Assembly (NCBI GenBank): GCA_947487165.1
Contig: CANKWX010000026.1
Span: forward strand, 1-47,291
DNA from: Burkholderiales bacterium
Lineage (GTDB): Bacteria; Pseudomonadota; Gammaproteobacteria; Burkholderiales; Burkholderiaceae_E
Reading direction: 5' to 3'
Length of the DNA: 47,291 bases
Each line of letters starts with the position of its first letter. The first letter of the stretch is position 1. The translations under genes were made by a program, and so were the position numbers. This document shows, one piece after another, positions 1,155 through 24,010 of the stretch. The notes beneath the pieces are model-generated. The model did no database searches, had not been told where the DNA came from, and saw nothing but the letters and a program-made list of their open reading frames with translations.

Positions 1155-1309
1155 GACCAATGGTGCCGCCGTCGGCATCAAGCCGATAGTCCAAAGGCAT
1201 CAGGCGAAGCGCTGCAGACAGCGTCGCTGGTTCATCAAAGATTTCCAGAATTCGTCCCGAGGCGGTCACTGCTGTGCGGTCGCCCAAACACCCATTCTGG
1301 AGAACCACA

Positions 1310-2173: not shown

Positions 2174-2181
2174 TCACCAGT

Positions 2182-2211
2182 CACGCAACGTTCAAACACG
2201 CAACACTCAAA
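2182..2211. repeat. tandem pair of 15-bp direct repeats
   Basis: CACGCAACGTTCAAA (2182-2196) is followed directly by CACGCAACACTCAAA (2197-2211), 13 of 15 bases identical. The pair fills most of the 55-base gap between the PEP-CTERM gene and the next secreted-protein gene, and ends 17 bases before the next ATG. It may be a local duplication or a site for a protein that binds direct repeats. Confidence 0.55.
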
Positions 2212-2228
2212 CCAATTCAGGAAACAAC

Positions 2229-3702: not shown

Positions 3703-3727
3703 CAACAGCGAATCGGCACAAGCACAG

Positions 3728-3753
3728 ACCCCGGGGCGACCCGGGGTTTTTTT
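3728..3753 (+). terminator. Rho-independent terminator
   Basis: ACCCCGGG (3728-3735), loop GCGA (3736-3739) and CCCGGGGT (3740-3747) form a perfect 8-bp GC-rich stem followed by a T run (3747-3753). This is a textbook intrinsic terminator about 84 bases after the stop of the secreted-protein gene. It separates the first block of the window from the TPS operon. Confidence 0.93.
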
Positions 3754-3975: not shown

Positions 3976-5664
3976 GTGACTCCTGAGCCGCACAACTCGC
4001 GCCTGGTTGCAGGCAGATGCATCGCCGCCCTCGCTTTGTTTGCGATTGCAGCGATCATTGGTTTGCCGCGAGCAATGGCGCAGCAGGCCGCGCCGCCCGC
4101 GCAAGCGGCTGGCGCCAAAGACGCTGCGCCGGCAGCCGAATTTGATGTGCTGGAGTTTTTTGTTGAAGGCAATACGGTGCTGAGTGCGGCAAGCATCGAA
4201 AACGCGGTCTATCGCTTCATGGGCGAAAAGCGTTCACTCACCGATGTGCAAAATGCCCGCGAAGCGCTCGAGGCGGCTTATCGCGATCGAGGCTATCTTG
4301 GCGTGTCGGTGCTGATCCCTCAGCAGCAGGTCAAGGACGGTGTGGTTCGTCTCGAAGTGGTCGAGGCAAAAGTCAACCGCACCCGCGTCAAGGACGCCCA
4401 GTACACCTCGCCAGCATGGGTGCGCGAGCAACTGCCTTCGGTGGCTGAGGGCACGGTGCCGAATTTCAACCGATTTGAGTCCGAGCTGGTCGGCCTCAAT
4501 CGGATGAACCTGCTCACCGCCACGCCGCTGCTGCGCCCGGGTGCCGATGCCGGTGCGCTCGATGTCGATGTACTGCTTGAAGACCGCAAGCCCTGGGCGC
4601 TGATTGTCGATCTGAACAACAATGCTGCGGTCAATACCAAGCCCCTGCGACTTGGCGTGGCCGGGAGCTACAACAATATGTTTGGGCTGCGCCACAGTCT
4701 TGGGGCGCAGTTCGTGGTCTCGCCGCAGGACACCTCGCAGGTCAAGCTCGGCACGGTCAATTACTCGGCGCCATTAGGCGGGCCGGACGATGCCACGCTC
4801 ACCGCCTACTACCTGCGTGCAGACAGCGGCACGCCAACCTCGATCGGTGGCCTGACGGTGGTCGGCAAGCAGTCGATTGCGGGTCTGCGCTATGTGAATC
4901 CGGTGCCTGCCCGACTCCGCCTTCAGCAGGCGGTTTCCTTCGGTATCGACTACAAGCAACTTGATCAGGGCGAGCTGACGCCGAGTGGCGGCACGAGCCG
5001 TGTCACCTATTTGCCCTTCTATGCTGGCTATAACGCGGTGCGACCCACCTCGGCTGGGCTGTCCACGGTGGATGTGTCGACCGGCTTTTCGATCAGCGGC
5101 GTGGGCAGCGACGATGCCGAGTTTGCCGCCCGTCGCTATGGCGCGAGTGCCAGTTACCTGAGCTTGCGCGCTGACCTCAGTCATGAGACGCGTTTCGACG
5201 GCTGGTCGCTGCGTGGCCGGGTAGCAGGGCAATATGCCAATCAGCCTCTGATTCCCTCCGAGCAGTTTACGTTGGGCGGTATGAATTCGGTGCGGGGCTA
5301 TTACGACGCCGAGCAGATCGGCGACCGCGGCTATCTGGTTTCGATCGAAGCGCGGGGCAGCCGCCTGGAGCCCCTGAGCTTCCTGCAACAAAAGCCAGCC
5401 GGTGCAGCCAATACTGCGACAAGTACCGGCAGCCGCTTCTCCCTCATCCCGATCGCGTTTGTGGACGCTGGACTGACTCGCATCCTCGATCCGCTGCCGA
5501 GCCAGATCAGCAAGTACTCGCTGGCCAGCGTCGGGCTTGGCTTTCGTTCCAACGTCATGGCAAAGACCTCATTCTCGGTGGATGTCGCGCGCGCCTTGCG
5601 TTCGGGCAGCTTCACCCAGGAAGGGGACTATCGCGCCAACTTCCGCCTGATTGCGGAGTTCTGA
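3976..5664 (+). CDS. TpsB outer-membrane transporter (ShlB/FhaC/HecB family)
   Basis: This 562-residue protein is the pore-forming partner of a two-partner secretion system and should export the TpsA encoded 3 bases downstream. A signal peptide (hydrophobic residues 16-30, cleavage near AMAQ) leads to a POTRA-type region at about 56-135 (VLEFFVEGNTVLS; ALEAAYRDRGYLGVSVLIP), a second POTRA-like part to about 210, and a 16-strand-type barrel to the C terminus. The barrel shows the family's loop-6 motif VRGYY (439-443) and ends in Phe (RLIAEF), as outer-membrane barrels do. The length matches the family. Start GTG 3976 is the only good start that keeps the whole signal peptide; its Shine-Dalgarno sequence is weak. 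Confidence 0.93.
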   Translation: MTPEPHNSRLVAGRCIAALALFAIAAIIGLPRAMAQQAAPPAQAAGAKDAAPAAEFDVLEFFVEGNTVLSAASIENAVYRFMGEKRSLTDVQNAREALEAAYRDRGYLGVSVLIPQQQVKDGVVRLEVVEAKVNRTRVKDAQYTSPAWVREQLPSVAEGTVPNFNRFESELVGLNRMNLLTATPLLRPGADAGALDVDVLLEDRKPWALIVDLNNNAAVNTKPLRLGVAGSYNNMFGLRHSLGAQFVVSPQDTSQVKLGTVNYSAPLGGPDDATLTAYYLRADSGTPTSIGGLTVVGKQSIAGLRYVNPVPARLRLQQAVSFGIDYKQLDQGELTPSGGTSRVTYLPFYAGYNAVRPTSAGLSTVDVSTGFSISGVGSDDAEFAARRYGASASYLSLRADLSHETRFDGWSLRGRVAGQYANQPLIPSEQFTLGGMNSVRGYYDAEQIGDRGYLVSIEARGSRLEPLSFLQQKPAGAANTATSTGSRFSLIPIAFVDAGLTRILDPLPSQISKYSLASVGLGFRSNVMAKTSFSVDVARALRSGSFTQEGDYRANFRLIAEF

Positions 5665-5667
5665 GCG

Positions 5668-8600
5668 ATGCGCCGCCACCTGATCCGATCCCTTCTTGCG
5701 CTCACCGGCGGCCTTCTGGCCGCCACTGCGATATCGGTGCGCGCGCAGGCGCTGCTGCCCGGCACGGTTGCCGGCACGCGGGTCGTGCCGGGGGTCAAAA
5801 CCTGGGTCGGCGCGCAGCCGGGTGGTGTGACTGTCAATCCGGATGGCAGTCGCGAGATGCTGATCCGGCAGACGCAGTCGCGCGCAACGCTTAACTGGAC
5901 ACAGTTTGATGTTGATCGGGGTGAGACAGTTCGATTTGATCAGCAGGGCAATCGCGACTGGGTAGCGCTCAACTGGATCCATGCCCTCAAGCCCAGCCAG
6001 ATTGCTGGCCGGCTGGTGGCTGATGGCGCGGTCTACCTCATCAATGCCAACGGCATCGTCTTCAAGCCGGGCTCGCAGGTCGACGCATCGGCCTTCATCG
6101 CCTCGACCCTGAGCATCAAGAACGATGCGTTTTCAAAGGGCCTGACCGCGATGGCGCGAGGGCAGGCCGCATTCGAATTTGACGTCTCGGCTGGCTCGGC
6201 CGATGCCCGTATCGAGGTTCAATCGGGTCCGGTACGCAGGCTCGACGGCTCGGTGGTTCGCGCACCCGATGGCAGCGAACTCGTCCAGGCAGCCACCATC
6301 AGTTCGGCAGACGGCGGCCGGGTCTTTTTGCTGGGTACCCGCGAGGTGATCAACCGCGGTCTGATCAAGTCGCCTAATGGGCAGGTGATTCTGGCGGCTG
6401 GCTCCAAGGTCTACCTCTTTGCACCAACCACTGCCGACAGCGCGGCGTTTCGCGGCTTGTTTGTCGAAGTCGAGGCCGGTGGCGTCAATCGCAACCTCGG
6501 GTCTGTGCTCAACAACGGCACGATCGAAACGCCGCTTGGCAATACCACCCTGATGGGCATGGCGCTTCGCAATGCCGGGCGCATCAGTGCCGACACCTCG
6601 GCCACCGCGAACGGCTCGGTCTATCTCTATTCGCGCGCCAACCCGGTCTTCACGACCGGGTCGTCCGATCGGCCGCTGACCACCACCTCCGGCACGGTAC
6701 AGATCGGGCCGACCGGCGTCATCGAAACACCGGTACGCAGCAACCTCGCTGCCGACGGCAAACCCGAGACGGTGCTCGACGCACAGACGGTTTATCCGTC
6801 TGAAATCAGGCTGGCCGGCCAGTCGATCCAGCTTCAGGGTGATGGTGCGAGCGGTGCGCGGCTGACCGCGCCCGGCGGTCTGGTCAGCCTGAGCGCCAAC
6901 GAAAACTTCGCCGACCCTTCGCCCATCAAGCCGGTGGGCACCGGACGCATCGTGATCGATGCCGGCGCGAGCATCGACGTCTCGGGTATCCGAGGCGTGA
7001 GCGTGCCGGTGTCGCGCAACCTGATCGATGTGCAGGTCGGCGGCGAAAACGTGGCTGACAACCCCACGCTTCGCACCGGACCGCTCGCGCAGGAAACCCT
7101 CAAGATCGATGCCCGCGTCGGATCGCCGCTCTTTACCCAAAGCGCGCTCGATGCACTGGCCGCAACACAGATCAAGCGTACGGTCGAGGAGCGGATGACC
7201 GCCGGCGGCACGGTGAGTTTGTCTTCGACCGGCGAGGCGGTGGTCAATCCGGGCGCACGCATCAACATTGCGGGCGGCTCGGTCGACTACGCACCGGGCG
7301 TGCTTCAGACCTCCCGGCTCTTTGATGGCCGCCGGATCGTTGACGTCAGCCAGGCAACCCCCGACCGGATCTGGACGCTCGCCGACTTTTACATTGAGAA
7401 CGATGCGCGCTGGGGCGTAACCCGCAAATTTGCGCTGAGCCCGGTAACAGCCCGCAGTGCCGGCTACCTCGATGGACGCAACGCCGGTCAGTTGGGCCTG
7501 GCCGCGCCCTGGGTGAGCTTTGGTGGCACGGTTGATGGATCGGTGCTGAGTGGCGAGCGCCAGCGCACCAGCCCGCCGTTGGGCGGCCTGATCAGCTTTG
7601 GTCAGCGCGACGCCTACCAGAATCCTCAACTCGACTATCAGTTGCGCAGCCCGATCATTCTCGGGTCGACCGGCGGCGCCGGTCAGGCGCCAGCCTTCGG
7701 CATCGATGCCAACCGTGACGAGCGCTTTGGTACCGAGGCTGCGCCGTTCGCGCAGACCATCAACGTGCCGGCGCTGACCGCCACCGGAATCTCGCGTCTG
7801 GAGGTCTTCAGCAACAACAGCGTCACCGTGCCGGCCGGCTCACCCGTCACGCTGCCGGCGGGCGGCCGACTCACCGTGGCCGCAGGCGCGGTGTCGGTCA
7901 ATGCCGACATCAGCGTGCCGGCAGCGCGTGCCGAAACCTTCGTGCGCACCGCCACACCGAGCGTCACCTCCAGCGGCATCGACCTGACCGCCAGCCAGAA
8001 GGGCGAAGGTCAGTCGGTGTCGACCGGTGCAGTGTCGATCCGCAATGCGCGCATCGATGCCTCGGGTCAATGGGCGGTCGATACCCGTCAGCCTGGCGGC
8101 TTGGAGCAGCCGGCCTATCTGGTCAACGCAGGCTCGGTACGACTGCAGGGCTATCGCAGTTTTGTGGCCGATGCTGCCAGCCAGATCGATGTGTCGGCCG
8201 GCGCCTATCTGTCGCCGACCCGTCGTCTGAGCACCGGCACCGCCGGAGCGGTGCAGGTTGGGCTGAACACCACCGATTCGCTGCGTGACCCGTCGATCGC
8301 ACTGACTGCTCAGTTCGACGCGACTATCAGAGGCTTCGGCTTTGCAAGCGGCGCAAGCTTCAAGGCCCGGGCGGCCGATGTGCTGGTCTCCGACGTCCGG
8401 CCTGCCGACTACCAGGGCCTGTGGCTGCAGGCGGGCCGCTTCGCCGCCGAAGGCTTGTCATCGGTTGATCTGACCGGCATCTTCAGCGCCTCGATCGGCG
8501 CCGACACCGCGATTCGACTGGTGCCGCAGTCCTATCGCTTCGCGCAGGGCGCGCAGGCGGTGACCACGCCCGACACCCTGCGGGCATCAGTGACCACCCT

Positions 8601-11600
8601 CGAGTTGCCGATTCAGGATCGCAAGCCCACCTCGTTCTCGATGCGGTCGACGGCGACCTATGCCGGTGTTATCGAAGTCGGTCGGGGCAGCAGGATCGAG
8701 GTTGCACCCGCCGGCAGCATCGCGATGGACGCCAGCTACCAGCTGCTGCTTGCCGGTGCCCTGACCGCACCCGCCGGCACGGTCAGCCTGGGCGTCAATA
8801 GCACCGACAGCTACGTCGGCTTTCGGGGCGAGCAGGGCCTCTACATGACCGCCGCCGCCAGCATCGACGCCAGCGGTATCGACGCCACCGTCGCCTTGCC
8901 GCTCAATCGTCGCGGTGGCAGCGTGCTGGCGGGCGGTGCGGTCAGCCTGAATGCGCCCACCGGCTATCTGGTCATGGAGCCGGGCTCGCGTGTCTCGGCG
9001 CGCGGCGCGTCGGGGCTGATCAACGGCGATTCGGTCAACCCGAGCCAGCCGGCCGCACCGCAGCAAATCGCCACTGCCGGCGGCCGGGTCTCGCTGGCAT
9101 CGGTCGATGGTGGCGTGATCGCTTCACGCATCGATGTGTCGGCAGGCGGAGCGGGCGCGGCAGCCGGTTCGGTCACCATTGCGCAGACCCGCGATGCGCC
9201 GACGGGTGCGACCGACTCGGCCATCGGCCCGCGGCCTGCGCGTGTAGAGCGCCTGAGCATCGTGGCTGATGCGAATGCCATGCCGGCTGCCCTGCGTGCC
9301 GGCGGTAATGTCGATCTTGCGCTCAATGCCGGCGTGGTGGCCGGCCAGGAAATCTTCGAGACCCGGGTGGCGCAGTCGACCCTCGAGACGCTCGATGCCA
9401 ACACCCTCAAACTCAGCGCACGTGACCAGCTGAATGCGGCGGTTGACACCACGCTGAGCGCGAACAGACAGATCACCCTGGACGCGCCGGTCATCCGCAC
9501 CGAGCAGGGCAAGACGCTGACGGTGCGTGCGCCCTATGCCGAGCTCGGCTGGACCAATGCCTTTCCGCTGACCCAGCCGCTGGGCCAGGCACAAGGCACC
9601 AGCGGCGGCACCGGCCAGCTCGATGTCTCAACCGCCCTGGCGCTCGATCTGGTCGGCAATCTGATGCTGCAGGGCATCGGTCAGACCCGATTGGCCAGCG
9701 ACGGCGATCTGCGCTTGCGCGGGCTGTACAAGGCCAATGCCGATGGCAGCCCGGCCAACTATGCGGTCGGCCGGTTCGATGCCAGCGGCCGGGTCGATCT
9801 GATCGCTCAGCAGATTTTCCCTGTGACCGGCGCGGCCTACACGGTTGCGGTCGCGGGCGCCAACTCGACACTGTCTACCGCGCGGCCCAAGACCGACAAC
9901 GGATCGGCCTCGCCTGCGGTGCCGATATCGGGTCTTGGCAAGCTCAGCCTGAGCGCCGACACCATCGAGCTCAACGGCATTCAGCGCGCACCCTTCGGCG
10001 TCATCGAGGTCAATGCCGGCAAGACGCTGGTGCTGGGTGCCGGCGCCGAGGTCTCGGTGTCGGGCGGCAACACCCTGGTGCCCTACGGCCTGACCCAGGA
10101 CGGCCGTCAGATCGTCTATCCCTTCCTGGGCGGCACCGGCAGCGGCCCGACCCTGACACAGCTCGACCCGACCATCCGCCTGAGCAGCCCGAGCATCGAC
10201 CTGCGCCAGGGTGCACTGATCGATGCCTCCGGCGGCGGCGACCTGCTGGCCACCGCCTTCATCGCCGGCAGCGGCGGCTCGGTCAATCCGCTGCTGCGGC
10301 CCAATGTCTTCGCCATCGTGCCGAGTCTTGCCGGTGTGATGCCCTTTGACTACCAGATGCAGGCCGAACTGCCGACCCTGGGCGGCACCGCGACACTGAG
10401 CAGCTTCCGCGGCGCCCTGCCATCCGGCGCGATCACAACGTCCAAGCCGAAGCTTGCGGTCGGCGATCAGATTTTCCTGAACGCCGGCAGTGGTCTTGCC
10501 CAAGGCGTCTACACCTTGCTGCCGGCAAGCTATGCCCTGCTGCCGAATGCCTATGCGATCGCGATTGCCGACAACCAGAGCTTCGTGCCGATCCGAAGCG
10601 GCGCGCTGACCGATGGCAGCACGGTGGTTGCCGCGCAGCGCCTGGCGGCCGGCACCGCCGACCGGGACGCCCGCTGGTCGACGGTCAATGTGCTCAATGG
10701 CCCACAGTTGCGCCGCTATGGCGAGTTCATCTCTGATCAGGCGTCGCGTGACCTGGCATCCAAGCCTGCAGCGTCTGCCTCGGCGCGCCTGCCCCAGGAT
10801 GGCGGCACACTCGCTATCGACGCCCGCGGCACCGCGGTCACACTCGCCTCGCAAATTCGTCTTGCACCGGGCCAGACGCTGGCGCGAACCGCTGATGGCA
10901 CCGCCTATACCAGCGACGGCACGGTCACTGGCAGACGCGGTGCCTTCGAGTTTTCTTCCGAGGGCGCGACGATCAAGATCGGTGGCACCACCACTGGCAC
11001 CCCAGCAGCCGGCGTCATTACGCTGGATGCAGCGCGCCTGAGCGAGCTCGATGCCGAGCGAGTGATGATCGGCGCACGCCGTACCGCGGGCACCGAGGTC
11101 GATCTGCTGACGCCGACCGCTGCCCGGGTCAGTGTCGAAACCGGCAGCCAGCTGCGCGCCGAGGAGATCGTGCTGGCCGCTCGTGAGCAGGTCGACATCG
11201 GCACCAACGCCAAGCTCGTCGGCGTGGCAAGCGATCGCGCAGCGCCGGCCTATGCGGTGCAAGATCAGGGCGCAGTGCTGGTCGTCTCTGGCACCGACCC
11301 GACCCTTGCCCGCACCGGTGGCCAGACCGGTACCGCGACCATCCGGTTTGCACCCGGCAGTTCGGTCCAGGCCCGGACCGTGCTCGCCGATGCCCCCGGT
11401 GGCATTGCGCTGGATCCGAGTCTTACCCTCGATGTGAAATCGCTCGAGCTGTCGAGCCGAACCCTGGTGCTCGGCGATGGCGCGGTCACTGGACTCGCGA
11501 ACAGCTCGGGCGGCGCCGGCGGCGTGACGCGGCTTGGCAGCAGCCAGCTCGCCAGCATCTCAACCGGCGAGCGCCTTGCGCTGAGTGCGACCGACATCGT

Positions 11601-14600: not shown

Positions 14601-16401
14601 CACCCTTGGCGCAGCCGGCTCGGTCACCGGTGTCGGCAGTCTGGTTCAGCTCGATACCGACCCCTTGCGCTCCTTCAGTCTGAGCCGCCCCGGCGTGCTC
14701 CAGGCAAGCAAAATCGTCACCTACGACCGCGTCTCGGCCTTCGACGAACTCACCGTCGGCAAGCTGTCGCCCACCTCGACCGCCGCGCCGCTGGCTCATG
14801 CGCAATATCTGGTCCACCTTGCCGATCCACAGGTCTCGCGGGTCTATGCCGGTCAGGACATCACTACCCTGTCCAGCATCCTCAACTCGCCCTTGGCGAC
14901 AGTTTCGAGCAACCGGCTGCGACTGGTTTTTGCCGAGCCGGCCAAGGTGCGCGCCGGCCGCGACGTCAGCGATGTCAGCCTGATCATCCAGAACTTGCGC
15001 GACGGCGACCTCACCCAGATCACCGCCGGCCGAGATCTGATCAATCGCACCCAGACGGTCAACGGTCAGCTCGCGGCCAACAACGCCGGTATTGTGGTGA
15101 GCGGACCGGGGCTGGTCGAGCTCAGCGCCGGGCGCGACATCGCGATGGGCACTTCGGTCGGCATCGTCAGTCGCGGCAATCTCGATAACCCCGCCCTGTC
15201 TGACGTCGGCTCGTCGCTGACCCTGGTGGCTGGCCTGCCCGACAGCCCTGCTTATGCTGACTTCCTTGCGCGTTATGTCGCCCCTTCGACGAGTCAGCGC
15301 AGCCGCGACTACACACCGCTGCTGGTCGACTTTGTACGCTCGACCCTCAGCGACAGTGATGCGCAGTCGGTCACTGCCGACAATGCCTGGACGCTCTTTG
15401 GCAGTCTGCCGACGCATGAGCGCGATGCCTTTGCCAGAGCGGTCTTCTACGCTGAACTCAAGGCCGCCGGCCGTAATGCCTCGGCAACCAAGGTCGATGG
15501 CAAGACCAATCCCGACTATGGCAATTTCCAGGCCGCCTACGACGCCATGTCGACGCTCTTTCCGAAGGACGGCGCCGGCAACATCGACCTGGTCTTCAGT
15601 CAGGTCAAGACCGAGCGCGGCGGCAAGATCGAGTTTTTGACACCGGGCGTGGTGTGTCGAGGCAGCTGGTCCGCCTGCCAGGCCACGGACGCCTCCAAGG
15701 CGGTCGGCAATCTGCAGGTCGGCCTGGCCAATCCGCCATCCGAACTCGCCAGCGTCAAGGACTCTTCGAAGCTCGGCATCTTCACGCTCGACGGCGGCGA
15801 TGTCGACATCGCCATCGGCTCGAACGCCGCGGTCAATCGCTCGCGGGTGCTGACCGCAGGCGGCGGTGGTATCACCATGTTCTCTGCACTGGGCAACATC
15901 GATGCCGGCCGCGGCTCACGCACCGCCGCCACCGCACCGCCGCCACTGGTGCGGGTCGATGCGAACGGCAACGTCGTGGTCGAATTGCAGGGCGTGGTCG
16001 AGGGCTCCGGCATCGGCGTGCTGGTCACCAAGCCGGGCGTGCCTGCCAGCGACGTCGATCTCTTCGCGCCCAAGGGCTTCATCGATGCCGGCGAGGCCGG
16101 CATCCGCTCGGCCGGCAACCTGACCCTCTTTGCCACCGAAATCCGCAACAGCTCCAACATCTCAGTGGGCGGCAGCGCCACCGGTGTGCCGACTGCAACG
16201 GTGGCGCCAAACCTGTCGCTTGCGGCCGCAGGCAATGCCAACGCCGCCGCCGCCGCGAGTTCGGATCAGGCGGCTGCGACCGACCGCGACAAGCTTGCCG
16301 ACGAAAATCGGCAGGCCCGCAGCCGTCTCGTGGTCATCGAGTTCCTCGGCTTCGGTGAAGACGGCGAAGAAGCCTTCCGTCGCCGCAAGACCAGCAGATG
16401 A
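5668..16401 (+). CDS. TpsA-like giant filamentous haemagglutinin-family exoprotein
   Basis: This 3577-residue predicted beta-helical surface or secreted protein is the substrate of the adjacent TpsB. A signal peptide (to about residue 27, VRAQA) is followed by a TPS/haemagglutination-activity domain (about 30-250) with GTVAGTRVVPGVKTWVG, RATLNWTQFDV and INANGIVF (125-132). The latter stands where FHA-type proteins usually have NPNGI. A very long Gly/Ala/Ser/Thr/Asp-rich body with repeated ID(A/V)SG-type turns follows, as in right-handed beta-helices. The last about 300 residues (DVDLFAPKGFIDAGEAGIR, then LVVIEFLGFGEDG) resemble the DUF3739 C-terminal region of FHA-like proteins. On my reading the only two cysteines are C3330 and C3337. 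There is no VENN motif, CdiA-type toxin tip or adjacent immunity gene, so adhesion or matrix formation is the likelier role. The stop overlaps an ATG (ATGA at 16398). Confidence 0.92.
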   Translation: MRRHLIRSLLALTGGLLAATAISVRAQALLPGTVAGTRVVPGVKTWVGAQPGGVTVNPDGSREMLIRQTQSRATLNWTQFDVDRGETVRFDQQGNRDWVALNWIHALKPSQIAGRLVADGAVYLINANGIVFKPGSQVDASAFIASTLSIKNDAFSKGLTAMARGQAAFEFDVSAGSADARIEVQSGPVRRLDGSVVRAPDGSELVQAATISSADGGRVFLLGTREVINRGLIKSPNGQVILAAGSKVYLFAPTTADSAAFRGLFVEVEAGGVNRNLGSVLNNGTIETPLGNTTLMGMALRNAGRISADTSATANGSVYLYSRANPVFTTGSSDRPLTTTSGTVQIGPTGVIETPVRSNLAADGKPETVLDAQTVYPSEIRLAGQSIQLQGDGASGARLTAPGGLVSLSANENFADPSPIKPVGTGRIVIDAGASIDVSGIRGVSVPVSRNLIDVQVGGENVADNPTLRTGPLAQETLKIDARVGSPLFTQSALDALAATQIKRTVEERMTAGGTVSLSSTGEAVVNPGARINIAGGSVDYAPGVLQTSRLFDGRRIVDVSQATPDRIWTLADFYIENDARWGVTRKFALSPVTARSAGYLDGRNAGQLGLAAPWVSFGGTVDGSVLSGERQRTSPPLGGLISFGQRDAYQNPQLDYQLRSPIILGSTGGAGQAPAFGIDANRDERFGTEAAPFAQTINVPALTATGISRLEVFSNNSVTVPAGSPVTLPAGGRLTVAAGAVSVNADISVPAARAETFVRTATPSVTSSGIDLTASQKGEGQSVSTGAVSIRNARIDASGQWAVDTRQPGGLEQPAYLVNAGSVRLQGYRSFVADAASQIDVSAGAYLSPTRRLSTGTAGAVQVGLNTTDSLRDPSIALTAQFDATIRGFGFASGASFKARAADVLVSDVRPADYQGLWLQAGRFAAEGLSSVDLTGIFSASIGADTAIRLVPQSYRFAQGAQAVTTPDTLRASVTTLELPIQDRKPTSFSMRSTATYAGVIEVGRGSRIEVAPAGSIAMDASYQLLLAGALTAPAGTVSLGVNSTDSYVGFRGEQGLYMTAAASIDASGIDATVALPLNRRGGSVLAGGAVSLNAPTGYLVMEPGSRVSARGASGLINGDSVNPSQPAAPQQIATAGGRVSLASVDGGVIASRIDVSAGGAGAAAGSVTIAQTRDAPTGATDSAIGPRPARVERLSIVADANAMPAALRAGGNVDLALNAGVVAGQEIFETRVAQSTLETLDANTLKLSARDQLNAAVDTTLSANRQITLDAPVIRTEQGKTLTVRAPYAELGWTNAFPLTQPLGQAQGTSGGTGQLDVSTALALDLVGNLMLQGIGQTRLASDGDLRLRGLYKANADGSPANYAVGRFDASGRVDLIAQQIFPVTGAAYTVAVAGANSTLSTARPKTDNGSASPAVPISGLGKLSLSADTIELNGIQRAPFGVIEVNAGKTLVLGAGAEVSVSGGNTLVPYGLTQDGRQIVYPFLGGTGSGPTLTQLDPTIRLSSPSIDLRQGALIDASGGGDLLATAFIAGSGGSVNPLLRPNVFAIVPSLAGVMPFDYQMQAELPTLGGTATLSSFRGALPSGAITTSKPKLAVGDQIFLNAGSGLAQGVYTLLPASYALLPNAYAIAIADNQSFVPIRSGALTDGSTVVAAQRLAAGTADRDARWSTVNVLNGPQLRRYGEFISDQASRDLASKPAASASARLPQDGGTLAIDARGTAVTLASQIRLAPGQTLARTADGTAYTSDGTVTGRRGAFEFSSEGATIKIGGTTTGTPAAGVITLDAARLSELDAERVMIGARRTAGTEVDLLTPTAARVSVETGSQLRAEEIVLAAREQVDIGTNAKLVGVASDRAAPAYAVQDQGAVLVVSGTDPTLARTGGQTGTATIRFAPGSSVQARTVLADAPGGIALDPSLTLDVKSLELSSRTLVLGDGAVTGLANSSGGAGGVTRLGSSQLASISTGERLALSATDIVYLTDGLKLGSVGFGEIELRSPTLNWGEPTRAGNATIDAQRVILSGGPTLVSTPTPNAASAGLGQLRITASNGALPDSGQLITDAGVRTIQGFAGTQARAESAWLLKGDGATRTAGELIVRTPAVMAAAGATQSVFADRMQVLGAGTPAAVGAVAPIPGPGGRLTLSAQTATLDTAIRLPSGRLSIESTAADAASPSLTLGAQALVDLHSATLSLYDATFAASGGSLTLTSRLGSILAQAGSRIDVSGREGADAGSLNLAAPAGSISLLGQLAGTGPSGQGGRFKADAQRFADAGALAASLKAGGFDGEVSMRQRSGDLVLGTGADAQTSIIAARAIALAADAGSVRLAGGRLDASGNDGGTVAFNASSQVQLAAGTTVAARGNTGKGGDVTLSGLGGVLARGATVDVGGASEGGEVELRFARTAANATNLQANANTVQGAARLNLTGVASYTPTVTSNNTTVTQTTLATAFTEATAFANTAPAVLALAGQTGNANARVRPEIEVLAKGATNSANLTVGSAIDLSAIRYTTVTSRDTAGVLSLRAGGDLILNGASATPGTAVTAVINDGFVAGTDFTNRPAASTTLGAAFDANAKDTWSYRLAAGSDFGAAQPLSVLALTNPALGSTAGNVRLLNSRIIRTGTGNIDLAAARDILIGTSSATATTLAAGGRASIMTAGRRAAAVPGFIDPQTLVGVPNTPIQADPKTNFNEGGGSITMAAGRSIVSTIEDPLMSGWLFRQGQVDAEGLPAVESQTSAIGLSPAWWPRFDFFRQTVGALGGGNLTLTAGLDITDVSASIGSSGRTVLTGDPLLDKLVVNGGGNLLARADGSIRSGTYGVMLGNAQLVAGDSVVQSTLARQSTQAGLGDATLSVEARNGLTFDQVYNPTLSEQRATNARVIGANNRSFFSTYTERSAIELTAAAGKVSLQESLPTALRTGIVTGETAVSIDQADLQRVTSMRPPTLAVAALGGDIEIVGRPAAGTNAATGAATLLAPAPIGGITLGAAGSVTGVGSLVQLDTDPLRSFSLSRPGVLQASKIVTYDRVSAFDELTVGKLSPTSTAAPLAHAQYLVHLADPQVSRVYAGQDITTLSSILNSPLATVSSNRLRLVFAEPAKVRAGRDVSDVSLIIQNLRDGDLTQITAGRDLINRTQTVNGQLAANNAGIVVSGPGLVELSAGRDIAMGTSVGIVSRGNLDNPALSDVGSSLTLVAGLPDSPAYADFLARYVAPSTSQRSRDYTPLLVDFVRSTLSDSDAQSVTADNAWTLFGSLPTHERDAFARAVFYAELKAAGRNASATKVDGKTNPDYGNFQAAYDAMSTLFPKDGAGNIDLVFSQVKTERGGKIEFLTPGVVCRGSWSACQATDASKAVGNLQVGLANPPSELASVKDSSKLGIFTLDGGDVDIAIGSNAAVNRSRVLTAGGGGITMFSALGNIDAGRGSRTAATAPPPLVRVDANGNVVVELQGVVEGSGIGVLVTKPGVPASDVDLFAPKGFIDAGEAGIRSAGNLTLFATEIRNSSNISVGGSATGVPTATVAPNLSLAAAGNANAAAAASSDQAAATDRDKLADENRQARSRLVVIEFLGFGEDGEEAFRRRKTSR

Positions 16402-16463
16402 GCACCGCCGTCATGACACCCGCCAAAGCCCCCTCTCTCCTTTCATTGCAGCCTGAGGCAACC

Positions 16464-18278
16464 ATGCCAACCAACCGAGCACTCGCCATGACTTCATTGA
16501 ATCGGTTTGCCGCGGCAGCGTTGTGCACCCTGGTCGGCATGACCGCGTCGCTGATGGCCTCGCCGGCGCAGGCACAGATCACCGACGCCTGGAAAAACAA
16601 GTCGCACTGGGTGCTCGACACCACCGATGCCGGTGCGGCCGTGAAATCGGCCCAGGCGCAGTTTGTGGTGCCGCTGCGCCTGCACACCGGCAACTTCGAC
16701 TTCACCACCGCCAAGCGCGACGGCAGCGACCTGAGAGTGGTCGCAGCCGACGGCAAGACCATCCTGCCGCACCGCATCGAGTACTTCGATGCCGCCAACG
16801 AACTGGCCGTGATCTGGGTGAGGGTCCCCACGCTTGCGCCCTCGAATGCCGAGCCCTCGATCTGGCTGTATTCGGCCAATCCCGATGCCCCGGCCCCGAC
16901 GCCGGTCGTGGTTCGCGATGGCGTGACCGTCCTGGCACTCAACGCAATCGCCACGCCTGCCAATGAGCAACTTGACGGTGTGAATGTCGCCACCCCGGGC
17001 GCTCAGGCCGGCACGCAGGGTCTGCTCGGTGAATCGATCGGTCTGCCGGCGGGGGCCCGCATCGAGGCCAGCGGCACACCGATCGCGATCGGCCCGGATG
17101 GCCTGACACTTTCCTTCTGGGTGCGTGCAAAGGCTGCCGCCGCGAACAGCCCCCTGCTGACCCTCAAAGGCGCTCAGTCAAGCATCACGGTCAGTCTGGC
17201 CGCCGGCCTGCCGACCCTGAAGGTCACCGGCCCCGGTATCCCTGCCGCCGGCGGATCCGCCGCAGGCGCTGTCGCCCTGCCGGCTGCCGAGTGGCGCCAT
17301 GTCACGCTGGTGATCGGCGAGCGCACCGCGCTCTTTGTCGATGGCAACGAAGTCGCCGGCGTGGCAGCCCGTCTGCCTGCCGAACCGGTGCAGATGGCAC
17401 TTGGCGGTAACACTGAATTTGACGTCGATGCACTGAGCCTGAGCAAGGTCGCCCGCTCGCCCGACTGGATCCGCGCCACTGCGGCCGCACAAGGCCCCGA
17501 CAACAAATTGGCCTCGATTGCAGCCGAAGCCGAGGATGGCGAAGCCAGCCACTTTCGCATCCTGGTCGACAACCTGACGCTCGACGGCAAGATCGTCATC
17601 TACATCCTGCTCTTCATGCTCCTGGTCGCGATCTGGGTGATGATCTCCAAGGCGCTGGAGTTGGCGAAAGTCGCCAAGGTCAATCAGCAGTTCCTGGCGG
17701 CCTTCAAAGACGCGCCGCCCGAGGCCTTCCTTGAATCGAAATTTGGCGCGGCATCGGCCGGTGCGGCCGCGGTCAACTCGCAATACCAGGAGTCTTCGCT
17801 CTATCGCATGTTCGAGACTGCGGGCGTCGAGCTGCGCAAGCGTCTCGATGGCGACGCAAAGACCGGGTCGAGTACCGGGTCGAATACCGGGTCGAATACC
17901 GGTCTCAATTCCCGAGGCCTGACCTCGATCCGAGCTGCCATCGACGCCACGCTGGTGCGCGAAGGCCAGCGCCTGAATCGCCTGATGGTGCTGCTGACCA
18001 TCGCGATCTCGGGTGGGCCCTTCATCGGGCTGCTCGGCACGGTGGTGGGCGTGATGATCACCTTCGCGGCGATTGCCGCGGCCGGCGACGTCAACATCAA
18101 TTCGATCGCCCCCGGCATCGCCGCCGCGCTGCTGGCCACGGTTGCCGGCCTTGCGGTCGCGATTCCGGCGCTCTTTGCCTACAACTGGTTCGCTTCGCGG
18201 ATCAAGGAAATGAGCAACGAGATGCAGATCTTCGCTGACGAGCTCACCAGCCGGATCGCCGAGCGCTTCGAGTCCTGA
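16464..18278 (+). CDS. DUF2341-LamG-like-ExbB fusion, MotA/TolQ/ExbB proton channel
   Basis: This 604-residue inner-membrane protein is predicted to form the proton channel of an ExbB-ExbD-TonB complex. A signal peptide (cleavage after PAQA, residue 37) is followed by a periplasmic DUF2341-like domain (about 64-150, RIEYFDAANELAVIWVRVP) and a LamG/concanavalin-like domain (about 205-335, LTLSFWVRAKA, WRHVTLVIGERTALFVDGNEV). A transmembrane helix (376-398), a cytoplasmic loop with a tandem repeat (467-483) and the ExbB core follow, with helices at about 505-540 (GGPFIGLLGTVVGVMITF) and 550-575. ATG 16464 follows TGAGG at 16455-16459. An in-frame ATG at 16398 overlaps the tpsA stop and would add 22 residues. 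Ordinary ExbB is about 240 residues, so the periplasmic half is an added sensor or docking part. Confidence 0.88.
   Translation: MPTNRALAMTSLNRFAAAALCTLVGMTASLMASPAQAQITDAWKNKSHWVLDTTDAGAAVKSAQAQFVVPLRLHTGNFDFTTAKRDGSDLRVVAADGKTILPHRIEYFDAANELAVIWVRVPTLAPSNAEPSIWLYSANPDAPAPTPVVVRDGVTVLALNAIATPANEQLDGVNVATPGAQAGTQGLLGESIGLPAGARIEASGTPIAIGPDGLTLSFWVRAKAAAANSPLLTLKGAQSSITVSLAAGLPTLKVTGPGIPAAGGSAAGAVALPAAEWRHVTLVIGERTALFVDGNEVAGVAARLPAEPVQMALGGNTEFDVDALSLSKVARSPDWIRATAAAQGPDNKLASIAAEAEDGEASHFRILVDNLTLDGKIVIYILLFMLLVAIWVMISKALELAKVAKVNQQFLAAFKDAPPEAFLESKFGAASAGAAAVNSQYQESSLYRMFETAGVELRKRLDGDAKTGSSTGSNTGSNTGLNSRGLTSIRAAIDATLVREGQRLNRLMVLLTIAISGGPFIGLLGTVVGVMITFAAIAAAGDVNINSIAPGIAAALLATVAGLAVAIPALFAYNWFASRIKEMSNEMQIFADELTSRIAERFES
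17862..17909 (+). repeat. 12-bp in-frame tandem repeat (four units)
   Basis: ACCGGGTCGAGT, ACCGGGTCGAAT, ACCGGGTCGAAT and the diverged ACCGGTCTCAAT stand end to end inside the ExbB-fusion gene. They encode TGSS-TGSN-TGSN-TGLN in the predicted cytoplasmic loop before the second transmembrane helix. The 12-base unit keeps frame, so copy-number change would alter loop length without truncation. Confidence 0.85.
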
Positions 18279-18313
18279 GCCGCGCATCGCCCCATTCACC
18301 CGAGGATTAACCG

Positions 18314-18718
18314 ATGCAAGTTCAGCAGGAAAACAAGCCCTACGACGATATCAACGTCACGCCGATGCTCGACCTGGCGTATGTGTTGCTGGTCATCTTC
18401 ATCATCATGACCACCGCCTCGGTGCAGGGCATCAAGGTCAATCTGCCCAAGGCCAGCAATACGCCGAGTCTGGCCAAACCCAAGACCAAGGCCATCACGA
18501 TCAACGAGAGCGGGCAGGTCTTTCTCGATGCCTATCCGGTCACGATTCCAGAGCTCGAAACCCGTCTGGCACAGCTCAAGGCCGCCGACCCCGAATTGCC
18601 GGTCGTGGTCAAGGGCGATGCCAAGGTGCAATACGAAAAGGTCATCGAAGTCCTCGATCTGATCGGGCGCCTCGAGATCACGCAGCTGGGTCTGGTCACC
18701 CAGCGGTTGACCCGCTGA
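18314..18718 (+). CDS. exbD: ExbD/TolR-family biopolymer transport protein
   Basis: This 134-residue inner-membrane protein is the stator partner of the preceding ExbB. Its single N-terminal helix carries DINVTPMLDLAYVLLVIFII, with the conserved membrane Asp (D20 by my count) that takes part in proton flow in ExbD/TolR. A periplasmic domain of about 85 residues follows (ITINESGQVFLDAYPV; LPVVVKGDAKVQYEKVIEVLD). ATG 18314 follows GAGGA at 18302-18306. It lies 35 bases after the ExbB gene and 25 before the TonB-like gene, as expected for one operon. Length is normal for the family. Confidence 0.95.
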   Translation: MQVQQENKPYDDINVTPMLDLAYVLLVIFIIMTTASVQGIKVNLPKASNTPSLAKPKTKAITINESGQVFLDAYPVTIPELETRLAQLKAADPELPVVVKGDAKVQYEKVIEVLDLIGRLEITQLGLVTQRLTR

Positions 18719-18743
18719 CGCGGCCTGATTTGCGAACACGATC

Positions 18744-19460
18744 ATGGCCGGCGATCAGACCACTGCAACCCCTTCAGTAGGCACCCGCTTTCAGAAGCGA
18801 TGGCTGTTGTGGGCGGTCGCGGGTCTGCTGATTGTTGCGTCGACGGTCTGGCTCTATCTGTTGCTGAACCAGCCGGTCAAGAAGACCCGACCCACTGCCC
18901 AGCAGATCAGTCTGGTCCGGCCTAACGTCCCGCCCCCGCCGCCCAAGCCGCCGGAAAAGCTGCCCGAGCCTCCGAAGGTCAAGGAGGAGGTCAAGATGGA
19001 GCAGCCCAAACCGGTCGATCAACCCAAGGCGGCCGAGCCGCCGCCTGCCGAGCGCCTTGGCGTCGCGGCCACTGGCAGCGGTGCCGGCGACGGTTTCGGT
19101 CTGGCCGCCAATCCGGGCGGGCGCGACTTGCTCAACAGCACCGCCAGCATCGGCGGTACCGGCGGCGGCGGCGCACTCGGCCGAGCCCAGTTCGGCTTTT
19201 ATCGCGATCTGCTGACCCGTCATGTAAACGAAGAGCTCAACCGCATCACGGAACTCAAGAGCAGCAGCGGTCAGGTGGCGATCCTGGTCTGGGTCGACAG
19301 CACCGGGCGCATCGAGCGCGTCGAGATGCGTGATGCCACCGAGCGCCAGAACGAACTGATCCGCGAACGCCTGCTGGCCTCGCGGCCGCTGCGTGAGGCG
19401 CCGCCTGCGCCGATGCCGCAGCCGATGTGGATCCTCCTCAATCTGCGCGATCTCGGCTGA
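18744..19460 (+). CDS. TonB-like energy transducer
   Basis: This 238-residue protein should carry energy from the ExbB/ExbD complex to the outer membrane. It has one N-terminal transmembrane helix (about 21-41, LLWAVAGLLIVASTVWLYLLL), then a proline/lysine-rich periplasmic spacer (NVPPPPPKPPEKLPEPPKVK and on to about residue 105). A glycine-rich stretch and a C-terminal TonB-type domain from about 150 follow (QVAILVWVDSTGRIERVEM; RERLLASRPLREAPPAPMP). Its place directly after exbD, and next to both a TPS pair and a porin, suggests a dedicated rather than housekeeping TonB. The outer-membrane partner is not shown by the sequence; the porin, TpsB or TpsA are candidates. Confidence 0.87.
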   Translation: MAGDQTTATPSVGTRFQKRWLLWAVAGLLIVASTVWLYLLLNQPVKKTRPTAQQISLVRPNVPPPPPKPPEKLPEPPKVKEEVKMEQPKPVDQPKAAEPPPAERLGVAATGSGAGDGFGLAANPGGRDLLNSTASIGGTGGGGALGRAQFGFYRDLLTRHVNEELNRITELKSSSGQVAILVWVDSTGRIERVEMRDATERQNELIRERLLASRPLREAPPAPMPQPMWILLNLRDLG

Positions 19461-19487
19461 TCCGGCGCGCAATCCTGACATCTTCGA

Positions 19488-21185
19488 ATGGCCCACGTAA
19501 TCATGAGAACTCCTGCCTTACTGATCGCTGCCCTCACCAGCCTGCCGATGCTGCTGATGCCGCTGGCCGCCCATGCCAACGAGCGCGCCGAGCTCGAGCA
19601 ACTGCGCGATACCGTGACCGATATGGTTGAAGCACTGGTGGCCTCCGGCGCCCTGTCGCGTGCCAAGGCCGATCAGCTGCTGGCGCGTGCACGCGCGAAA
19701 GCGGGTCTCGCAGCAAGCACCGCGCCGCCCGCCCCGGGCTCGGCTGCCGTGGCGGTTGTGCCTTCTGCCGGCGTGGGTGTGCGCAGCAATGCGCCTGCCA
19801 CCGCGAGCGCACAGCCCCCGGTCGCCCGTCCGGGTGTGCGCAGCGAGACAGCCACCAGCGACCCTGTCCGCGTGCAATACGTGCCTGAAGCGGTCAGAAA
19901 CGAGATCACGCAGCAGGTCAAGCAGCAAGTCGTTGCACAGGCTCGCGAAGAGCGATGGGGAGAGCCCGGGGCGATGCCCGACTGGGTTGAGCGACTCCGC
20001 TTCAGCGGCGACTTGCGCGTGCGCCTTCAGCAGGACAATTTTTCAGGCGACAACGCGCCACCGGCCGTCCTGTATGACGAATATGGCAGCGGCACCAACT
20101 ATGCGGATACAACCAACACGACGGTCGACCGCAACCGTCTGATCCTCAGAGCCAGGTTCGGTGTTGCCGCGATCATCAACGATCAGTGGACCAGCGCGAT
20201 CCGCTTCAGCACCGGCAACACCCTCGGCCCGACATCCACCTCGTCGACCGCGGGCGATGCGTCAGGCCGCTATCAGGTCAAGATCGACCGCGCTTACATG
20301 AAGTGGGCGCCGAACAGCAACCTCTCCGTCCTCGCCGGCCGGATGCCCAATCCCTATCTGAGCTCGGACATGATGTTCGCCGAGGAACTCGGCTTCGATG
20401 GTGCCGCCGCTTCGGCCGGCTACAGCCTGAACGACCAGGTACGCTTCATCGGTGTCGCAGGCGCCTACGCACTGAAAGAGAACGCGCTCGGTAAGGACCG
20501 CTGGATGTCCGGTCTGCAGGCCGGCGTCGAATGGCGTACCTCCCCAGTCTTCGGCATGCGGGTGGCACTTGCGCGCTACGGCTTCAACAACGTCGCCGGT
20601 GAGCAGGACACCGTCAACTACGGCACGGCTTCCTATGCATTGACCCAATACGAAGCGGGTTTCCGTCAAAAGGGCAACAGCCTGTTCCGTATCAACGACC
20701 CGGTGTACGACACTGCGAGCCGATCGATCTGGGGGCAGGCCAGCCAATTCAATGTGAACGCCCTGACTTTCGGCTTTGAGGCGGCGCACTTCGATCCGAT
20801 CGTGATCGACGTGAGCGGTGAACTCATCCAGAACACCGGCTGGGACGCGGCCGACATCGCGAACCGCACAGGCGGCTATCTTGTGACGCGCGGCACGAAC
20901 GGCCACCAGTATCGCGTTGCGCTCGGCCATCGCGCGGTCACGCGTGAACGCGACTGGCAGGCTTCCGTGATGTATCGCTATGTCGAGAAGGATGCCACCC
21001 TCGATGCGCTGACCGACCCGAACTGCGGCCTGGGCGGCACCAACCTGTCATGCGTCGCACTGGCGGGCGCTTATGGCCTGGATCGCAATCTTGCCTTCGG
21101 AGCACGGTGGATGTCCGCCAATCGGATCGAAGGCGCAACTTATCGCGTAAACACCTTCCAGATTGACCTGACAACGAGGTTCTGA
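19488..21185 (+). CDS. outer-membrane porin of the putative-porin (Porin_5-like) type
   Basis: This 565-residue protein begins with a signal peptide ending PLAAHA. A short periplasmic helical segment follows (ERAELEQLRDTVTDMVEALV), then an Ala/Pro-rich linker to about residue 150 and a beta-barrel from about 170 (RLRFSGDLRVRLQQ; NRLILRARFGVAAIIN; DRAYMKWAPNSNLSVLAGRM) to the terminal FQIDLTTRF. The final Phe and alternating strands fit an outer-membrane barrel. An alternative start is ATG 19503 (MRTPALL), which sits closer to the hydrophobic core of the signal. It follows the TonB-like gene by 27 bases. The substrate is unknown. The N-terminal helical region could contact peptidoglycan or the coiled-coil protein encoded next. 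Confidence 0.85.
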   Translation: MAHVIMRTPALLIAALTSLPMLLMPLAAHANERAELEQLRDTVTDMVEALVASGALSRAKADQLLARARAKAGLAASTAPPAPGSAAVAVVPSAGVGVRSNAPATASAQPPVARPGVRSETATSDPVRVQYVPEAVRNEITQQVKQQVVAQAREERWGEPGAMPDWVERLRFSGDLRVRLQQDNFSGDNAPPAVLYDEYGSGTNYADTTNTTVDRNRLILRARFGVAAIINDQWTSAIRFSTGNTLGPTSTSSTAGDASGRYQVKIDRAYMKWAPNSNLSVLAGRMPNPYLSSDMMFAEELGFDGAAASAGYSLNDQVRFIGVAGAYALKENALGKDRWMSGLQAGVEWRTSPVFGMRVALARYGFNNVAGEQDTVNYGTASYALTQYEAGFRQKGNSLFRINDPVYDTASRSIWGQASQFNVNALTFGFEAAHFDPIVIDVSGELIQNTGWDAADIANRTGGYLVTRGTNGHQYRVALGHRAVTRERDWQASVMYRYVEKDATLDALTDPNCGLGGTNLSCVALAGAYGLDRNLAFGARWMSANRIEGATYRVNTFQIDLTTRF

Positions 21186-21187
21186 CC

Positions 21188-21880
21188 ATGACGGCCATCC
21201 TGATGCGCGCTGCACCGATCGCGCTGGCGATCTCACTGCTCGGCCCGGGCGCGGTGTTTGCCCAATCTCAATCGGGCGCGAAAAAGGCCGATCCTGGTAT
21301 GGCGCGGCAGGCCGAAGCGATCCGCAACCTGCAGGCGTCTCAGGCGCAACTCAAGGCTGAAAACGAGAAGCTCCTTGCCGACAAGAACGCCGCTGATAAG
21401 GCGCGAGCGACACTTGAAAAGCAGCTCGCCACCGATCGCGATCGGGTTCAGGCGCAGTCCCGACGGCAGGTCGGCGAAAAGGAGTCCACTATTGCCCGGC
21501 TGGAGCGTGAACTCGCCCAGGCTCGCAAGGAAGCCGCCGACACCGGTGAGCGCCTGAAAGAGGCCGACGGACAGCGCCAGGCCGAATCGTTGCGAGCCCA
21601 GCAGGCCCTGGCACGCATCAAGGACCAGGAGGCGCTGCTGGCCCAGGGCGCCACCGACAATCGCGATCTCGCCGGCCGCCTCACTGCCTGTCGGGGCAAC
21701 AATATTGCACTGTCCGGCATCACTTCCGATCTGCTGACCGCCATCGAGCGTGGCGGCTATGGTGATGCGCTGGTCGGCACCGACCCTTTCTCAGGCTACA
21801 AACGGGTCCGTGTCGAAGCCCTCCTGCAGGAGTACCGGGACAAGATCGACGACCAGCGATCCGCCCTTGGCGGACGCTGA
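21188..21880 (+). CDS. periplasmic coiled-coil protein of unknown function
   Basis: This 230-residue protein has a signal peptide (MTAILMRAAPIALAISLLGP, cleavage near VFAQ). About 130 residues of heptad-rich coiled coil follow (roughly 38-165, QLKAENEKLLADKNAADKAR; STIARLERELAQARKEA). The small C-terminal part has one cysteine (LTACRGNNIALSG) and ends YRDKIDDQRSALGGR. ATG 21188 comes two bases after the porin stop, so it is translationally coupled and last in the TPS-energy operon. I do not recognise a named family. A spacer or scaffold across the periplasm for the porin/TonB complex is possible but is inference. Confidence 0.75.
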   Translation: MTAILMRAAPIALAISLLGPGAVFAQSQSGAKKADPGMARQAEAIRNLQASQAQLKAENEKLLADKNAADKARATLEKQLATDRDRVQAQSRRQVGEKESTIARLERELAQARKEAADTGERLKEADGQRQAESLRAQQALARIKDQEALLAQGATDNRDLAGRLTACRGNNIALSGITSDLLTAIERGGYGDALVGTDPFSGYKRVRVEALLQEYRDKIDDQRSALGGR

Positions 21881-23134: not shown

Positions 23135-23183
23135 GCCCCGCTCAAGCAGGCCGACGTTCAGCGTGAATAACCCAGTGAAAACC

Positions 23184-24002: not shown

Positions 24003-24010
24003 ACTCGACG

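Follow-up and report, generated by a model that had tools for sequence, protein, structure and literature searches.

A two-partner secretion operon with its own ExbB-ExbD-TonB-type motor and porin, and a conserved strand motif at the exoprotein C terminus as candidate contact

What drives two-partner secretion (TPS) in the absence of an energy source is described as a basic open question (PMC5422565). The question bears on a locus in a 47,291-nucleotide stretch of a Burkholderiales bacterium genome (GCA_947487165.1, contig CANKWX010000026.1; 'the window' denotes this whole stretch), where seven open reading frames on the plus strand, at 3976-21880, encode the outer-membrane partner TpsB, a very long exoprotein TpsA, an ExbB fusion, ExbD, a TonB-like protein, a porin of the Porin_5 family and a coiled-coil protein. 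The original prediction was that the ExbB-ExbD-TonB module may drive export, release, stretching or display of TpsA, or that the porin may open in step with it. The tightly spaced single-strand run on which it rested was confirmed, the intergenic distances being, in order, 3 bases, a 4-base overlap, 35, 25, 27 and 2 bases (−4 to 35), and the next large plus-strand ATG frame starts at 22097, 216 bases downstream. We conclude that TpsA, TpsB, the porin and the motor are almost certainly one functional unit, and consider below where the motor would act.

The conclusion of a single unit is carried by the occurrence of the parts across 369 genomes drawn from the window's class and 74 genomes of its family. 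Within the family, DUF2341, which is fused to ExbB in the window, is present in six of the 74 genomes, and in all six TpsA adjoins it. In the class sample DUF2341 is found in 30 genomes, 22 of which carry the ExbB fusion as judged with hidden Markov models (HMMs); no fusion was found in the other eight, so DUF2341 alone was dropped as a marker and only the DUF2341-ExbB fusion was counted. DUF3739, the domain near the TpsA C terminus, scores over its cut-off in 23 class genomes (24 at E ≤ 0.001), and Porin_5 matches occur in 54, being near-full-length in 24 (E ≤ 2.5e-138) and partial in the rest (E ≥ 1.8e-34). These 24 genomes are all 23 with DUF3739 plus G177, in which the module lies on a short contig. 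Thus, co-occurrence is near-perfect, DUF3739 being accompanied by a near-full-length porin in 23/23 genomes (Fisher p about 1e-35) and by the ExbB fusion in 21/23 (Fisher p 6e-31), with G273 (64% complete) and G174 having DUF3739 but not the fusion, and G177 the fusion but not DUF3739. Co-occurrence over 369 genomes rules out chance neighbours.

Gene order points the same way. Among 25 copies of the ExbB fusion in 22 genomes, the window's included, the porin lies directly downstream in 20, four have no porin downstream (L037, L048, L061 and L062) and one copy lies at the edge of its contig; a long TpsA was within the fetched stretch for 18. A scan with a DUF3739 alignment gave at least 528 relatives, and in the best 80, kept as loci, many of which stop at contig edges or at the 10-kb flank, HMMs found the ExbB fusion in 57, ExbD in 52, a TonB-type C-terminal domain (CTD) in 49 (only VreA-like in L080), the porin in 46, the coiled-coil gene in 40 and TpsB in 38. 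Carriers, by record title, include Thiobacillus, Nitrosospira, Methylobacter, Hydrogenophaga, Rubrivivax, Steroidobacter, Bradyrhizobium and Verrucomicrobia. The link between the TPS pair and the energy module therefore stands as originally proposed, since the parts occur together across many families of the class, and the expected recurrence in distant lineages was also seen, in Alphaproteobacteria and Verrucomicrobiota. Plasmids carry the set as well: 11 of 16 plasmid records match at least 80% of the ExbB fusion, the order TpsB-ExbB-ExbD-TonB-porin-hypothetical is kept on Methylosinus, Klebsiella quasipneumoniae and Cupriavidus plasmids, and an Aquabacterium olei plasmid (L173) has the operon accompanied by ankyrin, PEP-CTERM and hypothetical genes like those upstream in the window. 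A Methylomagnum plasmid has ExbB-ExbD-TonB with no TPS or porin gene within the stretch shown.

The further suggestion of an undescribed system does not hold. In Pseudomonas aeruginosa, pdtA, phdA, pdtB, exbB2, exbD2, tonB4, PA0696 (a putative porin) and PA0697 belong to the sigma-VreI regulon (PMC2729926, PMC7035377), and homologues of TPS, ExbBD and PA0696 were noted in 2009 to be associated in some other species as well (PMC2729926); the TonB genes of that locus were called "still uncharacterized" in 2020 (PMC7035377). By published annotations and gene order, both loci appear to run from tpsB through exbB, exbD, tonB and the porin to PA0697 or its counterpart; the window differs in starting with tpsB-tpsA in one run and, as regards the VreA/VreI/VreR control of P. 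aeruginosa, in that its genome gave no VreA-like protein in a search made for VreA only. The ExbB fusion of the K. quasipneumoniae plasmid is 32% identical to that of the window over 91%, and further along its cluster come genes for YbjN, PPIase and LysR, as is the case with PA0698, PA0699 and PA0701; between the PPIase and LysR genes, at the place of PA0700, is a gene for a small protein with a TonB-type CTD. The system is thus known from one published locus, and uncharacterised there; a class with the porin and with C-terminal TpsA motifs was not found described in the literature searched, in which the word DUF3739 does not occur.

Where the motor might act is suggested by the TpsA tail. In this tail DUF3739 is followed by a variable linker rich in alanine and serine and then by a hydrophobic strand motif, termed box1, with the consensus LxVEVLGFG, mostly within about 65 residues of the stop codon; in the window box1 likewise follows an A/S-rich linker and ends 14 residues ahead of the stop. 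The box1 pattern matches 87 of 99 complete TpsA C termini (a few loci were entered twice in this set), with 0.003 matches expected from TpsA bodies. A stricter pattern has 86 matches, a few of which fall elsewhere in the tail, and misses 13 C termini, 11 with a sequence like AEVIGHGE and two with one like VKxFCxG; a related strand is aligned at box1 in all 49 rows of an alignment of 48 single-copy loci and the window. This near-universal tethered strand motif at the end of most TpsAs is what is new here.

Candidate partners of box1 were ranked by partial correlation in the 49 rows that have all parts, with 500 permutations and with TpsB left out. With DUF3739 and all the other parts tested controlled, the values are 0.239 for the TonB CTD and 0.230 for the conserved VRV box of the porin (0/500 for both), followed at lower values by ExbD (0.176, 3/500), the porin barrel (0.118, 17/500), the ExbB channel (0.078, 44/500), the porin helices (0.061, 101/500) and the ExbB extension (0.051, 110/500), with the DGFGL motif of TonB and the coiled-coil gene below zero. 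The DGFGL motif, which gave no signal, was accordingly rejected as the box1 partner. The correlations, which are suggestive only, point to the TonB CTD and the porin VRV box as candidate partners among the parts tested, and the TpsA C terminus is, from sequence comparison, a likely contact of the energy module.

Genomes with many TpsAs bring a second motif into view. Eight such genomes (six Bradyrhizobium, one Reyranella and one Paraburkholderia) contain 1 to 17 DUF3739 rows each, 50 in total and some broken, yet have a single near-full-length Porin_5, except that G443 has two copies of equal score; in the Bradyrhizobium genomes G443 and G457 there are 15 and 17 rows, some broken by stops, for one or two porins. 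Whole or partial modules are present in five of the eight, and TpsB in a sixth. A search with three VreA-like proteins, which combine an STN domain with a TonB-fold CTD, located copies upstream of many of these TpsAs, and 35 of the 50 rows, from seven genomes, were taken as pairs, selected for a same-strand upstream VreA match. In every one of the 35 pairs VreA is encoded upstream of TpsA, at a distance that would accommodate two genes, and among the intervening genes a sigma factor was recognised in 26 pairs and FecR in 34. Box1 is the most conserved part of the 35 TpsAs (median BLOSUM distance 0.13 versus 0.53-0.63 elsewhere), which is what a site recognised by a single common partner would show.

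The last approximately 40 residues of the same 35 TpsAs hold, after box1, the second motif, box2, the distances of which follow those of VreA (r 0.49 for the CTD and 0.48 for STN) more than those of the TpsA to which it belongs (0.15 for the TPS domain, 0.01 for the DUF3739 part and 0.23 for the stretch before box1), the TPS domain and DUF3739 tracking each other at 0.76. A weaker link joins VreA to the TpsA body (STN with the TPS domain given DUF3739, 0.20, 3/2000), and is gone by plain rank correlation (rho −0.03). The link of box2 with VreA holds when near-identical VreAs are removed and pairs are compared within genomes (30 loci; CTD rho 0.42, 0/1000; STN rho 0.36, 5/1000), and the nearest VreA-CTD neighbour is among the top three for box2 in 14 of the 30, about 3 being expected by chance. 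The second tail motif is inherited with an STN/TonB-fold signalling cassette; by these distances, box2 belongs to the VreA-sigma-FecR cassette and is inherited apart from the rest of TpsA. VreA was found mostly soluble and is predicted to lie in the periplasm, and in 2009 an outer-membrane partner was suspected for its TonB/TolA-like domain (PMC2729926); the signal that induces its pathway has been described as still unknown (PMC7035377). No VreA-like protein was found in the window's genome, as noted above, and the window's TpsA tail, again unlike the P. aeruginosa-type arrangement with a VreA cassette, has box1 without box2; among 17 other genomes searched, a protein with both VreA halves occurs only in G347, whose TpsA (L038) has a long tail after box1.

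All three motor subunits of the TonB-ExbB-ExbD and TolA-TolQ-TolR type are encoded in the window. In the third gene a start resembling a signal peptide is fused to DUF2341, LamG_3 and the ExbB channel; Pfam identifies both the ExbB/TolQ-type channel and the ExbD/TolR subunit, and the ExbB core matches TolQ/ExbB structures. The best NCBI family is TolQ for the ExbB part and TolR for ExbD, with all scores below the equivalog cut-offs (exbB, tolQ, exbD and tolR), placing both proteins outside those named subfamilies. Unlike the TonB and Tol motors, the window ExbB bears a DUF2341-LamG extension, which by analogy with ExbB topology is probably periplasmic, and the operon has no plugged receptor; DUF2341 on ExbB-like proteins has been listed as of unknown function (PMC12505986). 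The TonB-like protein alone had no Pfam match and scored 19.1 bits against NCBI TonB, below the cut-off of 27.1, but of 56 aligned family members 48 have a TonB_2 match and 23 a TonB_C match. Its AlphaFold model has one membrane-type helix, a low-confidence proline-rich stretch and a C-terminal domain, and the CTDs of HasB, TolA (TolA-III) and TonB top its fold list, weakly (best E 0.018, none ≤ 0.001). The family matches and the model together identify a transmembrane anchor, a proline-rich spacer and a TonB-fold CTD, i.e. the parts of a TonB; the spacer carries the motif LGxDAxGxAGxDGFGLxAxKGGR, several positions of which are nearly invariant in the 56 members. Two exbD genes are apparently in tandem in L078, L079, L082, L087 and L173 (from HMM matches, and annotated in L173), and small proteins with a TonB-type CTD, among them that of the K. 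quasipneumoniae plasmid, lie near TPS genes in L080 (11767-12252) and L176 (20818-21402).

In the porin model (mean pLDDT 81.5), helices at residues 27-78 and 134-154 flank a stretch of low confidence and there are 16 long strands; its best structural matches are the Veillonella outer membrane attachment porin OmpM1, chitoporin and PorB. We take it for a stalked trimeric-porin-like protein, with trimer and stalk suggested by these matches; its N-terminal VRVxYVPE box is highly conserved. No plug-like domain is present in the model, in which only the helices and the low-confidence stretch precede the strands, and the model does not support a classical TonB-dependent receptor, which has a 22-strand barrel with a plug. 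The lack of a receptor plug in the model also speaks to some degree against the part of the original prediction by which the porin may open in step with TpsA, although such opening may still occur.

The explanation that we favour, with confidence balanced about evenly for and against, is a TPS system of the P. aeruginosa pdt type, in which TpsA-TpsB would work as a unit with a dedicated ExbB-ExbD-TonB motor and a porin, with TonB gripping box1 to power a late step. TpsB would export TpsA starting from the N-terminal TPS domain, leaving the C terminus (the DUF3739 coils, the flexible linker and box1) in the periplasm at least temporarily. There the TonB CTD could seize box1 by strand pairing, in the way that TonB and TolA pair with partner peptides, and the motor would then pull or hold the TpsA tail and so power the late step, which may be the completion or locking of export or the setting of adhesin hold or release; this step would be seated in the outer membrane at the porin and its N-terminal helical stalk. 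CdrA/CdrB with LapG offers a parallel in that a periplasmic C-terminal TpsA tail is acted upon (PMC5422565), although there it is a protease that acts and in the window a TonB-fold protein is proposed instead. That the TonB protein acts on the TpsA C terminus we regard as an even call, whereas an effect on the completion or locking of export, as opposed to release or sensing, seems less likely than not.

Several observations weigh against this explanation. Classical TPS systems (FHA/FhaC, HMW and ShlA) have, like the window, a POTRA_2/ShlB TpsB and an N-terminal TPS domain but, unlike its motor-bearing operon, are described without an energy source; indeed, no hydrolysable energy source or gradient is stated to power type V translocation, and reconstitution works without one (PMC5422565). 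That 2017 review does not mention ExbB in its main text and lists no motor or porin among the core additions (section 9), and a test of ExbB, ExbD or TonB in TPS export was not found in the passages covered from PMC2729926, PMC4971064, PMC5422565, PMC7035377, PMC7643975 and PMC12505986. In P. aeruginosa, mutants in PA0690, PA0692, PA0695 and PA0696 kill zebrafish unchanged, although secretion was not the readout (PMC2729926), and in a vreA deletion strain the pdtA and phdA promoters are at wild-type activity in low phosphate (PMC4971064). With respect to box1, ExbD (0.176, 3/500) and the porin barrel (0.118, 17/500) also correlate with it under all controls; with DUF3739 as the only control, eight of nine parts do so (≤5/500), the porin barrel being top at 0.462. 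The loci come from different species, so the box1 correlations are confounded by species history.

With respect to box2, in the 26 pairs in which both the sigma and the FecR gene were identified, sigma (0.36) and FecR (0.41) track it as well as do the VreA CTD (0.34) and STN (0.37), such that VreA binding is not singled out. Given sigma and FecR, the VreA CTD keeps 0.13 (28/1000) and STN 0.24 (3/1000), and, given VreA, sigma keeps 0.24 (48/1000) and FecR 0.26 (29/1000); this control weakens the VreA CTD alone as the box2 reader. Neutral locus linkage, with TpsA bodies being swapped between fixed ends, could give the same pattern without contact. Exceptions to the linkage also count on this side. 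The 22 loci without a fusion in view represent 21 genomes, in four of which DUF2341 is absent; in the other 17 it occurs elsewhere, as counted by DUF2341 alone, in G452 only in a 1632-residue frame that is not of fusion size. Six ExbB-ExbD-TonB copies have no porin (L037, L048, L061, L062, L104 and L175). In a quick ExbB tree of 91 rows, into which a long DUF2341 protein (L060) slipped on a very long branch, L048, L061 and L062 form their own clade with long branches (SH-aLRT 99), L104, L037 and L175 fall outside it and L175 is placed among porin-linked copies; a motor of this type is thus used without a porin too. The porin and TpsA of G083 are about 23-29 kb from the L037 module, and L061 lies amid a cluster that by eye resembles type II secretion system (T2SS) genes, beside a short frame resembling a TPS domain and roughly 10 kb away from the TpsB of a full operon (L045) in the same genome.

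The alternative that survives best, though we think it unlikely, is nutrient capture or uptake in the manner of HxuA/HxuB/HxuC, with TpsA as a surface scaffold for capture and the TonB motor acting on the porin, through its VRVxYVPE box, so as to take up a substrate that has been captured or hydrolysed and perhaps contains phosphate. HxuC uses the cell's own Ton system. The heme system resembles the window in joining a TPS pair to a TonB-dependent function (PMC5422565), but HxuC is a TonB-dependent transporter, whereas the window operon encodes the motor itself and its barrel is a Porin_5. The link of Porin_5 to the set is as strong as that of TpsA, its N-terminal box is highly conserved and keeps the high partial correlation with box1 given above, phosphate starvation induces the P. 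aeruginosa locus along with a secreted phosphatase system (PMC7035377, PMC4971064) and one stand-alone module (Methylomagnum) lies near alkaline phosphatase genes, all of which would fit uptake. The plugless 16-strand model, with its OmpM1, chitoporin and PorB matches, does not fit a 22-strand TonB-dependent receptor, however; the C-terminal TpsA motifs would be left unexplained, and Bradyrhizobium-type genomes multiply TpsA, not the porin.

Decidedly unlikely is an envelope tether or force generator akin to Tol-Pal or the Agl gliding motor, which would move or anchor an adhesin-porin complex for adhesion or movement and not for export. The best scores of ExbB and ExbD against TolQ and TolR, albeit below the equivalog cut-offs, the TolA domains among the best TonB fold matches, the attachment porin OmpM1 as best porin match and the lectin-like DUF2341-LamG extension are consistent with such a role; however, the nearest-family matches may merely reflect shared motor ancestry, and no peptidoglycan-binding or Pal-like domain was found among the seven products (Pfam, E up to 0.01). 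In a third alternative, the tail of TpsA would be no more than a tag for secretion or signalling, and the TonB module a co-regulated neighbour serving other receptors. The regulon of the P. aeruginosa locus does include further functions, the Hxc T2SS among them (PMC7035377), and there are module copies without an adjacent porin, some without TPS, but this alternative is most improbable in view of near-perfect co-occurrence over 369 genomes and a gene order kept in many families.

The features of the operon are collected in the table. TpsB is predicted to be a type Vb transporter, with POTRA domains and an Omp85-type barrel, from POTRA_2 and ShlB matches over their cut-offs, and TpsA has the N-terminal TPS domain of that type, matched also by TIGR01901 (69.3 bits); the domain was scored with the TpsA N terminus scanned alone, a scan of the whole 3577-residue protein having given no match.

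Table. Positions in the window of the operon genes, their predicted parts and an upstream hairpin
Feature	Position	Strand	Support
Terminator-like hairpin directly upstream of the operon	3726..3749	+	Consensus match only
TpsB, POTRA_2 and ShlB/FhaC barrel, GTG start	3976..5664	+	ShlB 67.4 bits, POTRA_2 59.3 bits
TpsA, 3577 aa	5668..16401	+	Pfam/NCBI domain matches
TPS secretion domain of TpsA, aa 62-286	5851..6525	+	PF05860 75.1 bits, cut-off 33.5
DUF3739 of TpsA, aa 3399-3509	15862..16194	+	122 bits
Box1, C-terminal strand motif of TpsA, aa 3554-3563	16327..16356	+	Alignment with relatives
ExbB-type protein, 626 aa, N-terminal DUF2341 and LamG extension	16398..18278	+	Pfam
DUF2341 part	16719..16892	+	45 bits
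LamG_3 part, concanavalin-like	17091..17378	+	29.1 bits, cut-off 27.6
MotA/TolQ/ExbB channel part	17916..18227	+	96.4 bits
ExbD/TolR	18314..18718	+	98.9 bits
TonB: one membrane-type helix, Pro-rich low-confidence stretch, DGFGL-GGR motif, TonB/TolA-fold CTD	18744..19460	+	
Porin_5: N-terminal helices, conserved VRVxYVPE box, porin barrel	19488..21185	+	462 bits
Coiled-coil protein, signal-like start, conserved C-terminal part	21188..21880	+	Place of PA0697 in P. aeruginosa (PMC7035377)

Ahead of tpsB, at 153-3644 of the window, are an ankyrin-repeat gene, a PEP-CTERM gene and a gene for a 471-residue protein; likewise-annotated ankyrin, PEP-CTERM and hypothetical genes precede, in the same order, the operon of the A. 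olei plasmid. Directly downstream, at 22097-29968, is an exopolysaccharide/exosortase locus (SurA_N-like, Poly_export, sugar transferase, Wzz and exosortase EpsH), which the stretch around the L037 module resembles, as judged by eye. ExbB-ExbD-TonB genes are found near type II secretion genes in L061 (6103-14592, by eye) and L177 (1-9785, annotated), and the P. aeruginosa pdt locus likewise adjoins hxc.

A wider picture, which at present is rather doubtful, would be a class of proton-motive-force-coupled TPS systems in which a TonB motor grips the common motif to power the end of export or display and VreA reads the locus-specific motif, by which the state of secretion of each exoprotein would be sensed. 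A TPS class with its own motor makes the question of how TPS export is driven testable by deletion, and the C-terminal motifs are concrete candidate ligands for TonB4-like proteins and for the VreA pathway; if true, the reading of box2 by VreA would account for the missing PUMA3 signal.

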